Assembly (NCBI GenBank): GCA_018823175.1
Contig: JAHJIY010000067.1
Location: forward strand, 1-64,000
DNA from: Pseudomonadota bacterium
GTDB lineage: Bacteria > Desulfobacterota > Desulfobulbia > Desulfobulbales > JAHJIY01
Direction: 5' to 3'
DNA length: 64,000 nucleotides
The notes beneath the pieces are model-generated. The model was not told the origin of the DNA. It saw nothing but the letters and a program-made list of their open reading frames with translations, and made no database searches. Positions 37,358-41,403 of this stretch are shown here, piece after piece. The position numbers and the translations under genes are program-made. The first letter of the stretch is position 1. Each line of letters starts with the position of its first letter.

Positions 37358-38281
37358 ATGTCTGTTTATGTTGTGGGACACAAAAGTCCTGATACTGATT
37401 CAGTTACTTCAGCCATTGCTTACGCCGAGTTGAAGAAGGCAATGGGGGTTGATGCTGTACCTGCGATGCAGGGAGAGCTTAACCCTGAAACTACTTTGGT
37501 TCTTGAGAAGTTTGGTTTTGCCGCTCCAGTGATTATGACTGATGGTGCCGGTAAAAAACTGATTCTTGTTGATCATAGTGATATTTCTCAGGCGCCAGAT
37601 AATCTGGATAAGGCAGAAATTATTGAGATTATCGATCATCATAAAATCGGTGATATCACCACCAACAACCCGATTCTTTTTAATGCGCAGCCGGTTGGTT
37701 GTACCGGTACTGTTTTGAAGCAGCTTTTTGAGATCAATAATGTGAAGATCACGAAGAATGTTGCTGGAATCATGCTTGCCGCTATATTGAGTGATACTGT
37801 TCTGTTCAAATCTCCAACAACCACTGAGGCCGATAAAAAAGCCTGTGATGGTCTGGCTAAAATAGCCGGTATTTCTGACATGGCAGCGTTGGCCATGGAA
37901 ATGTTCAAAGCAAAATCAGCCGTTGCCGGCGTTCCAGCCCGAGACTTGATTTTCCGTGACTATAAAGATTTTGACATGAAAGGCAAAAAAGTTGGTTGCG
38001 GTCAGCTCGAAATGGTTGATCTCTCACTGATTGACGATATGAGAGATGATCTTTACAAGACCTTGAAAGAAGTTAAGGAAGAGGGTGGTCGTCATACCAT
38101 CCTTCTGATGCTGACCGATATCATGAAAGAAGGCACCGACCTGATGGTAATCAGCGATGATGTCTCTTTTGTTGAGAAAGCTTTTAAGGTTAAAATTGAT
38201 GGTCCGACTGTCTGGATTGACGGTATGATGAGCCGTAAGAAACAGACTATCCCACCGTTACAGAGCGCTTTCGGTTGTTAA
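37358..38281 (+). CDS. ppaC: Manganese-dependent inorganic pyrophosphatase
   Basis: VVGHKSPDTDSVTSAIAYAEL, VDHSD, EIIDHHKIGDI, C-terminal SRKKQTIPPL. Confidence 0.96.
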   Translation: MSVYVVGHKSPDTDSVTSAIAYAELKKAMGVDAVPAMQGELNPETTLVLEKFGFAAPVIMTDGAGKKLILVDHSDISQAPDNLDKAEIIEIIDHHKIGDITTNNPILFNAQPVGCTGTVLKQLFEINNVKITKNVAGIMLAAILSDTVLFKSPTTTEADKKACDGLAKIAGISDMAALAMEMFKAKSAVAGVPARDLIFRDYKDFDMKGKKVGCGQLEMVDLSLIDDMRDDLYKTLKEVKEEGGRHTILLMLTDIMKEGTDLMVISDDVSFVEKAFKVKIDGPTVWIDGMMSRKKQTIPPLQSAFGC

Positions 38282-38304: not shown

Positions 38305-38345
38305 AAAAAGGGGCCGGTGGATTTCTTCCACCGGCCCCTTTTTTT
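38305..38345 (+). terminator. Rho-independent terminator after ppaC
   Basis: AAAAAGGGGCCGGTGG / CCACCGGCCCCTTTTTTT. Confidence 0.9.
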
Positions 38346-38393: not shown

Positions 38394-39971
38394 TTAGTGG
38401 GTACACCTTAATTTTTCAAGGTCTTGTGCAAAGTCAAAAGAATCGTCGTGCTCTTGCTGGTGACATCTCAGACAAATTGATTCATTTGGACTTGCCATGT
38501 TGAATTCCTTTGGGTTTCCTGAGTGTTTTTTCCCTGGACCATGGCAGGTTTCGCAACCGACTTGTTGTAACGTCGGAGGTAGTGCGAGGGCAAAGCTTTC
38601 AGCGCCGGTTTCGATCCCTGTGACATGACAGGCTATACATGAGCGGTCAAACTGCTGCCCTTTCCTGACCAGAGTCATATAGGCCCCGGCATGTCGGCTG
38701 TCTTGCCAACCTTTGGCCTGATTGGCGTGACAAGTAGAACATTTCAGCCAACCGACGTAAGCGAAATCTTCCGGTAAGATATTTTTGTTAACGGACGTAT
38801 CTGCTTTCTGGCTTGATGCTTTACCGGCCAGATTTATTTTCCTTTTCGTTTCATGGACTATCTTAAGTACCTCCTCGTGATCAGGGGATGAAATCTGCAT
38901 CGGAAAATATTGGTTTTTATAGGTGGATAATGTCTTTCCTTGTGGTTTCTCTAACTCTGCCATTTTCTCCAACATGCTGATTTCTTTTGATACTTCCTCC
39001 GCCATTTTAATGAAACCCTGGTAGCGGTCATCTTCCTTTGGAGTTTGGTTTTTCTCCAGTCTCTTTAACTGCCAGTTTATCCGATCCAGGGAATTTTTCT
39101 TTTCAACCATAAGCTCAGATGAAGCGTGTTCCCATTTTCCAGAGGTACCCCATTTGATTTGCAACCAGCCAAAATATTTTCCTTGTTTGGCACTGCTGCA
39201 TAATAGGGTGTTGTTTTCGAGGCGGGGTTTCATTGCCGAGTTGTTTGGTTCAGAGGTAATGATTAGATTGATTGCCGGGAATTTATTCGCAATTTCAATA
39301 TTTTGTTTGAGGGTAAGGCTTGAGAGTAACACGATAAAATCACTTTCCCTCGATAGATTATGGACCAGAGTTGGCAGAATGTTTTGCCATGGTTCTATCG
39401 TCATGTTTGCGTCAGGAGTAATGGCGGATGGTTGGCGGTCATCAGTTAGGCCGATGATTGCCGTGTTTATCTCGCCGATTCTCCGTGATATTGATGGGGT
39501 GAAAACAGGTTTGCCCGTCAATTTGCTCACGATGTTAGCGCTTAGCCAGGTAAACTTGGATTGTTCCACAATATTTTTAAAAAAATCCAGGCCGTTTGCC
39601 AAGTCCTGGCGGGCAATTCCTACTGCGTCGTAACCCATTATGTTATAGGCTTGAACTATGCCTTCAGCGGTTATTTGCGCCTGCTCGACTCTAGAGGGTA
39701 GCAGATTCGTATCTTTAAATAAAAGACCGCCTCCGTCGACCGTGAGGTGCGGTAGCTGATGTTCATCGCGTAATTTTTTAATTTGATAGCCTTTTTTGGA
39801 CAGACCGCCCAATTGATTAGTTTTTCAACCGCAGGGCTCGATCTCGCCGAGGACGTCATTTGAGTAAAAGACCATGAATTCCTGATCGCTTGTGGCAGCT
39901 GTTGCTTTGCCTGAAAAAGGAAAGATTGAGCTGATGATTGCAAATATCAAAAGGTAGGTGGCTCTTTGCAT
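38394..39971 (-). CDS. Putative selenoprotein: exported metallophosphatase (UshA)-like domain fused to a tetrahaem cytochrome c; Sec at residue 49 (TGA 39825-39827)
   Basis: ATG at 39971 with AGGAG ribosome-binding site; signal peptide MQRATYLLIFAIISSIFPFSGKATA; reading frame continuous across one TGA into the track ORF 38394-39812; four CxxCH motifs (CSTCH, CIACH, CETCH, CLRCH). Confidence 0.75.
39795..39827 (-). promoter_or_regulatory. Candidate bacterial SECIS element
   Basis: TGA AAAACTAATCAA TTGGGC-GGTCT-GTCCAA: 6-bp stem (one G-U), GGUCU apical loop 19-23 nt after the TGA. Confidence 0.7.
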
Positions 39972-40056
39972 GTTAATTTACTCCTGATGGCTGTGAAGTG
40001 ATTCTTTTAGCTGAGGTTAACCTTTAGGACTAGTAATGCTATATAAAGAGATAATG

Positions 40057-41403
40057 CTATTTATCATTTTGTTTACTTCTAGGCAATAACGACTTTCGTT
40101 CGGCAAGGATTTTGTGCCATTTGTTTAACCGGTCTTTTATGATGGCTTCATGTCCACGATTGGTCGGGTGATAGAATTTTTTACCCTTTAGTTCTGGTGG
40201 AAGATGATCCTGCATTACCACAGCATCCGGCTGGTCATGAGCATATTTGTAACCCTTGCCGTAGTCCAGTTTTTTCATCAGATTGGTCGGAGCGTTTCGT
40301 AAGTGTTTGGGGACCGGCAGGGTGCCTGTATTATTGATTAGCTTTTTGGCATCTGAGTAAGCAACGTATGTCGCATTGCTTTTAGGGGCAGTGGCCAGGT
40401 AGATTACAGCTTGGGCCAGGGCTAGTTCTCCTTCCGGTGATCCAAGAGTATGATAACTTTCTCGGGCGCTTATTGTTAATCCCAAGGCTTGGGGATCTGC
40501 GTTACCTATGTCCTCGGAGGCGAAACGGATAAGACGACGCGCAAGGTAAAGGGGGTCTTCCCCGGCCATCAGCATTCTGGTCAGCCAGTAAAGTGAACCG
40601 TCGGGATCGCTGTCCCGCAGACTTTTGTGCAGAGCGGAGATCAGATTGTAATGTTCCTCCCCGTATGCATCGTAGCGCAGACTTTTTCGCTGGATCGCCT
40701 CTTCGATGTTTTGCAGTTCGATGATGATTTTCCCGTCTTTATTGGTTGGGGTTAATGATACTGCGATTTCAAGACTGTTCAAGGCGCTGCGAGCATCACC
40801 GTCTGAAGTGTCGGCCAGATGGTCTAAGGCTGTTTTTTCGATCTGGATGTCCAGTTTCTGGAAGCCGTTTTCCTGATCGTGCAAGGTACTGATTAATATT
40901 TGTTTCAAGTTGTCAGAGGTAAGAGGATTTAAAACCAGGACTCGACACCTGGAGAGGAGCGGGGCAATTACTTGGAAGGACGGGTTTTCGGTGGTGGCTC
41001 CGATCAGGGTCAGAAGTCCGCTTTCCACGTGGGGCAGGAAACTGTCTTGTTGGCTTCGGTTAAACCGGTGAATCTCGTCCACGAAAAGGATGGTGTCGAG
41101 ATTTTTTTTCTTTCGAAGCTCTTCAGCAGTGGCCACGATTTTTCTTACCTCTTTCACCCCCGAGAGTACGGCCGAGAAAAACACAAACTCCGCTTTGGCA
41201 TTTTCGGCCAGGATGCGGGCCAGGGTTGTCTTGCCGGTCCCAGGAGGACCCCAGAAAATCAGGGATGGGATGTGATGTTCGTTCATCAGGCGATTTAGTA
41301 GCTTTCCTTCACCTAAAAGATGTTCCTGACCGACGAATTTGTCAATTGACTTCGGCCTCATTCTTTCAGCCAGAGGTATGCTTGATTTGTTATTCATAGT
41401 CAT
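40057..41403 (-). CDS. rarA: Replication-associated recombination protein A (MgsA/RarA)
   Basis: [58 protein letters not shown]. Confidence 0.95.

Follow-up and report, generated by a model that had tools for sequence, protein, structure and literature searches.

A UshA-like selenoprotein with a tetrahaem cytochrome domain and a probably lost metallophosphatase site in a member of the Desulfobulbales

Does an in-frame TGA (39825..39827, minus strand) end a gene, or is it read as selenocysteine (Sec) within a longer protein? We explored this question in the window, which is the whole stretch of 64,000 nucleotides analyzed here. Mechanical gene calling returned only a TTG-started open reading frame of 472 aa (38394..39812, minus), which lacks a signal peptide, as a sequence-only reading of this DNA had remarked. 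That reading had proposed a selenoprotein gene starting at the ATG at 39971, with AGGAG 9 nt upstream, a signal peptide and four CxxCH motifs, all of which were found to be right on re-reading. The whole gene spans 38394..39971 on the minus strand, ends at a TAA (38394-38396) and encodes 525 aa with Sec at residue 49 in a P-C-G-U motif (residues 46-49). The Shine-Dalgarno sequence AGGAG lies at 39981..39985 (minus), leaving a 9-nt spacer to the ATG. With the TGA translated as a residue, the product begins with the signal peptide MQRATYLLIFAIISSIFPFSGKATAA (residues 1-26; 39894..39971, minus), which was read directly and of which residues 2-16 are helical in an AlphaFold2 model; the surroundings of Sec49 read EIEPCG-U49-KTNQLGGLSKKG. 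The layout is a signal peptide, a metallophosphatase-like domain with the TGA at codon 49, a helical linker and four CxxCH motifs. Standard ORF calling truncates this gene, and both the signal peptide and Sec are lost. When the whole window was scanned mechanically for further in-frame TGAs, all candidates were short or lacked support.

The TGA could be a sequencing error, or a real stop in a gene that has decayed or been split, and gene callers do terminate the upstream frame there. We examined the corresponding column in an alignment of 62 full-length homologues drawn from the same class and phylum. Column 49 holds TGA in 50 and a Cys codon in the other 12, and nothing else; stop-free matches were fetched on purpose, so the 12 of 62 overstates the share of Cys. 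The presence of Cys homologues (EPCGC) is what the sequence-only reading had expected. The same TGA column is kept down to 24-44% identity, and both C47 and U/C49 are 100% conserved across the 62 sequences. In addition, the source genome (4.1 Mb, 111 contigs, 94% complete) contains selA, selB, selD and a tRNA-Sec with anticodon TCA, the check for selenium genes that the sequence-only reading had called for. A stop or an error at this position is extremely unlikely given that 50 homologues share the TGA and the rest have Cys, that the sel genes are present, and that the sequences on both sides are strongly conserved with no decay. We regard it as virtually certain that the gene encodes a genuine selenoprotein of the UshA-like (seleno)protein family NF041198, and the selenoprotein call made blind from the raw sequence proved correct.

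The selenium genes of this genome (G000) fall into two divergent sets. The first comprises selB on contig C108 (L199), tRNA-Sec on C37 (L035) and a Sec-containing selD on C95 (L075). This selD copy itself contains a Sec codon, in the position customary for selD (ARTCGUAAK, with TCGU); it lies at L075 619-2487 (minus), directly upstream of a gene for a TauE/SafE-like permease. The second set is on C104 and consists of selB (L207 6280-8247), selD (L207 14077-15123) and a divergent tRNA-Sec (L036) that overlaps the start of this second selB. It adjoins genes for arsenite-type methyltransferase-like, YedF-like, CoA-dehydratase activase-like and HdrA-like proteins. Since the GC content of C104 is 0.54 as compared with 0.475 for the window, contamination and acquisition are both possible origins of the second set.

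If the UGA is decoded by SelB, a bacterial SECIS hairpin just past codon 49 would assist the insertion of Sec, as the conservation around this codon suggests. A SECIS-like hairpin, UUGGGC-GGUCU-GUCCAA, is found at 39796..39812 (minus), 13-29 nt past the UGA. The published bSECIS model calls for a loop of 3-9 nt, a stem of 4-16 bp, a G in one of the two opening positions of the loop, a distance of 16-37 nt between UGA and loop, and a minimum free energy (MFE) of -7.5 kcal/mol or lower. The loop of 5 nt, the stem of 6 bp, the GG at the start of the loop and the UGA-to-loop distance of 18 nt all lie within these ranges, and the MFE of the hairpin alone, -6.4 kcal/mol, falls slightly short of the limit of -7.5. 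The hairpin is not stronger than its dinucleotide shuffles (z -0.62). When the fixed stem was compared with recodings that used the gene's own synonymous codons, p was 0.004 for the window gene, and the medians of this test were 0.02 for Sec forms and 0.16 for Cys forms. The codons under the loop appear locked: G55 is GGC in 48 of 50 Sec forms versus 7 of 12 Cys forms, and G56 is GGT in 44/50 versus 5/12 (Fisher p about 0.002 each, values that are optimistic because the sequences are related). Overall folding energy relative to synonymous recoding separated the Sec and Cys forms poorly (median z -0.08 and 0.6, respectively); the two were told apart only by the fixed stem with its codon lock. 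In a distant Sec clade (L009-L016), the fixed register does not fit and a shifted stem, CUUGGC...GCCAAG, seems to take its place. This suggests, as judged from these sequences, that the SECIS stem may have slid in the clade while the protein motif stayed.

The exchange between Sec and Cys appears to have occurred repeatedly. A maximum-likelihood tree of the 62 homologues needs three Sec/Cys changes. One falls in a clade to which the Candidatus Electronema cable bacteria belong and a second in a different family of the order, and the third affects a duplicated gene, so that a single genome has both a Sec and a Cys paralogue. The cable bacteria concerned (L108, L105) have the Cys form. A profile scan of genome contigs with an 11-row alignment yielded a wider set of named loci, spanning Myxococcus, Planctomycetes, Verrucomicrobia, Armatimonadetes, Scalindua and others. 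This set includes 18 PCGU and 55 PCGC loci, one of the latter (L158) probably spurious, and nearly all have four haem motifs; the motif was not found in seven loci of the set. The genome studied here also has a paralogue of 460 aa (L033 1471-2853; G000:C26:121384-122433) without haem motifs and without a TGA. Its motif, LACGGELQGGLARR, has Gly where Sec would be, and it scores 129.9 bits to NF041198, below all curated cut-offs.

The sequence-only reading had suggested that this combination of domains may be undescribed. The protein matches NF041198, an NCBIfam equivalog named UshA_like_PCGU ('UshA-like (seleno)protein'), with 606.2 bits against a cut-off of 275, and the match runs from residues 10-514 to positions 2-518 of the 519 in the model. 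The family shares the same full-length architecture and PCGU with the window protein, which differs from it in nothing of substance and is a member; within the class, a match above the cut-off occurs in 200 of 263 genomes. The relevant part of a 2008 study of the Global Ocean Sampling data (PMC2398784) tabulates UshA-like COG0737 CxU proteins with 76 Sec and 92 Cys sequences, and places them with the small number of families in which no Cys-based redox motif was recognised. That family and the window protein have the CxU motif, the UshA-like domain and Cys homologues in common in the part concerned. Entries for UshA-like CxU also appear in the pertinent passages of a 2022 review (PMC9312934, with WP_013162925.1) and of a 2026 review (PMC13188914, with NF041198). 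Given the NF041198 match and these three listings, the suggestion of novelty was wrong. The gene is one more member of a known bacterial selenoprotein family: a correct find, already catalogued since 2008. A second family, NF049981 (UshA-like selenoprotein family 2), has a related N-terminal domain, but the window protein scores 31.7 bits to it and does not reach its cut-off of 140; that family also differs in its CxxU motif and has a 262-position model. The passages on the UshA-like CxU family in the three papers contain neither a haem domain nor a mechanism, and our literature search found no paper pairing UshA-like proteins with multihaem cytochromes.

What the front half of the protein does was considered from its fold and its conserved residues. 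The UshA/5'-nucleotidase-like domain covers about residues 30-282 (39126..39884, minus), as indicated by a 3ivd/1ush profile, a Foldseek match to 1hp1 and column counts. In the AlphaFold2 model, which was built with 55 homologues and has a mean pLDDT of 88, the CGU loop is one of the regions predicted with lower confidence (pLDDT 77-78). Foldseek matched the front half to E. coli UshA (1hp1, E 2.7e-20), CD73 and SoxB (2wdc), and the fused layout of UshA-like and tetrahaem domains given by the sequence-only reading holds. A Pfam search of the protein found no metallophosphatase domain. The residues that act as metal ligands in UshA and CD73 are well known for that family, and we traced their columns through the profile alignment to the solved nucleotidases (3ivd/1ush). 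Column 41, the NDxH site, holds R, H, L, Q or M, mostly R, with His in ten of the 62 homologues. Column 82 (DAGD site) is A, N, G, D or S, with Asp in 7/62. The GNHE site at columns 121-122 is mixed (R, A or E at 121), the later His site at column 218 is S or N, and the GHxH site at column 241 is mostly G. No dinuclear metal ligand at these columns has been conserved, in contrast to the invariant C47 and U/C49. The term metallophosphatase in the sequence-only reading is borne out for the fold but, as the metal ligands vary so much, probably not for the chemistry of this protein. Since a few members keep Asp82 or His41, partial metal binding may be possible in those members, to judge by their residues.

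These residues in a few members, together with the matches to UshA and CD73 (E down to 2.7e-20), would fit an active 5'-nucleotidase or phosphoesterase of the periplasm, with Sec/Cys standing in for the lost metal ligands and the haems having a side role. We consider such an enzyme very unlikely, as the bridging Asp, the Asn-His pair and the later His ligands all vary among the homologues, no metallophosphatase match was obtained in Pfam, and a helical linker and haems take the place of the second UshA domain. In comparison with UshA and CD73, the window protein shares the N-terminal metallophosphatase fold but not the ligands, it lacks the second nucleotidase domain, and a Cys-Gly-Sec motif and a tetrahaem domain have been added. 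The protein might alternatively be a relative of the thiosulfohydrolase SoxB that acts on carrier-bound sulfur, with the haems taking electrons in sulfur oxidation or disproportionation. The fold match to 2wdc, a weak TIGR04486 SoxB match of 51 bits and the membership of the relatives in a sulfur-cycling order are consistent with this idea. We judge it unlikely, if somewhat less so than a nucleotidase: 51 bits is far under the 550 required for SoxB, this protein lacks the ligands of SoxB, itself a hydrolase with a dinuclear metal site, the loci examined for neighbours show no sox genes beside it, and homologues occur also in Myxococcus and Planctomycetes.

The back half contains a tetrahaem cytochrome c554-like domain (about residues 403-512; 38436..38765, minus; PF13435, E 5.8e-13). 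Its four CxxCH motifs, at residues 411, 445, 473 and 500, are all invariant in the aligned homologues. Cytochrome c554 of Nitrosomonas (1bvb) has the tetrahaem domain and PF13435 in common with the window protein; unlike c554, the latter joins it to a Sec-containing UshA-like domain. The signal peptide and the CxxCH motifs suggest that the protein is exported to the periplasm, where four c-type haems would be attached. The front half would then be a 5'-nucleotidase fold that no longer keeps its dinuclear metal ligands. The invariant Cys-Gly-Sec/Cys appears to sit on the loop whose start was formerly the first metal-binding motif (NDxH in nucleotidases). We propose that the CGU pair could carry out two-electron chalcogen chemistry, either between selenenylsulfide and selenol or by binding a sulfur or soft-metal substrate, and that it may pass electrons to or from the tetrahaem domain. 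We put the chance of such a redox mechanism between CGU and the haems at about even. The explanation that best accounts for the observations overall, and in which we have good confidence, is a selenoprotein of NF041198 built on a dead phosphatase scaffold, with the Sec-haem redox coupling as its inferred part.

The chromosomal place of the gene was compared among relatives. Upstream on the same strand lies a RarA-like AAA ATPase gene (40057..41403, minus), and downstream is a convergent gene for a DHH-family Mn-dependent inorganic pyrophosphatase-like protein (37358..38281, plus); both are syntenic and were named from reading their sequences. Between the convergent genes, a GC-rich inverted repeat followed by a T run (38310..38338) resembles a terminator. 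The rarA-like gene is directly upstream on the same strand at 20 of 21 loci, and the pyrophosphatase-like gene is convergent downstream at 19 of 21. The same neighbours are found in most relatives checked, which shows that the gene is old and has been inherited vertically. The neighbours at the 21 loci are housekeeping genes, a synteny that shows no pathway and no functional link.

We tentatively suggest, at slightly less than even chance, that a dead phosphatase fold became a periplasmic redox enzyme, in which Cys-Gly-Sec occupies the place of the former dinuclear metal site and passes electrons to and from a fused wire of four haems, with the Cys version found in several phyla and the Sec version the usual one in this class. 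The family was catalogued, as far as we found without a known function, and the analysis adds a testable picture of it: loss of the metal ligands, an invariant Cys-Gly-Sec/Cys, fusion to a four-haem domain, repeated exchange of Sec and Cys, and a fixed place on the chromosome.
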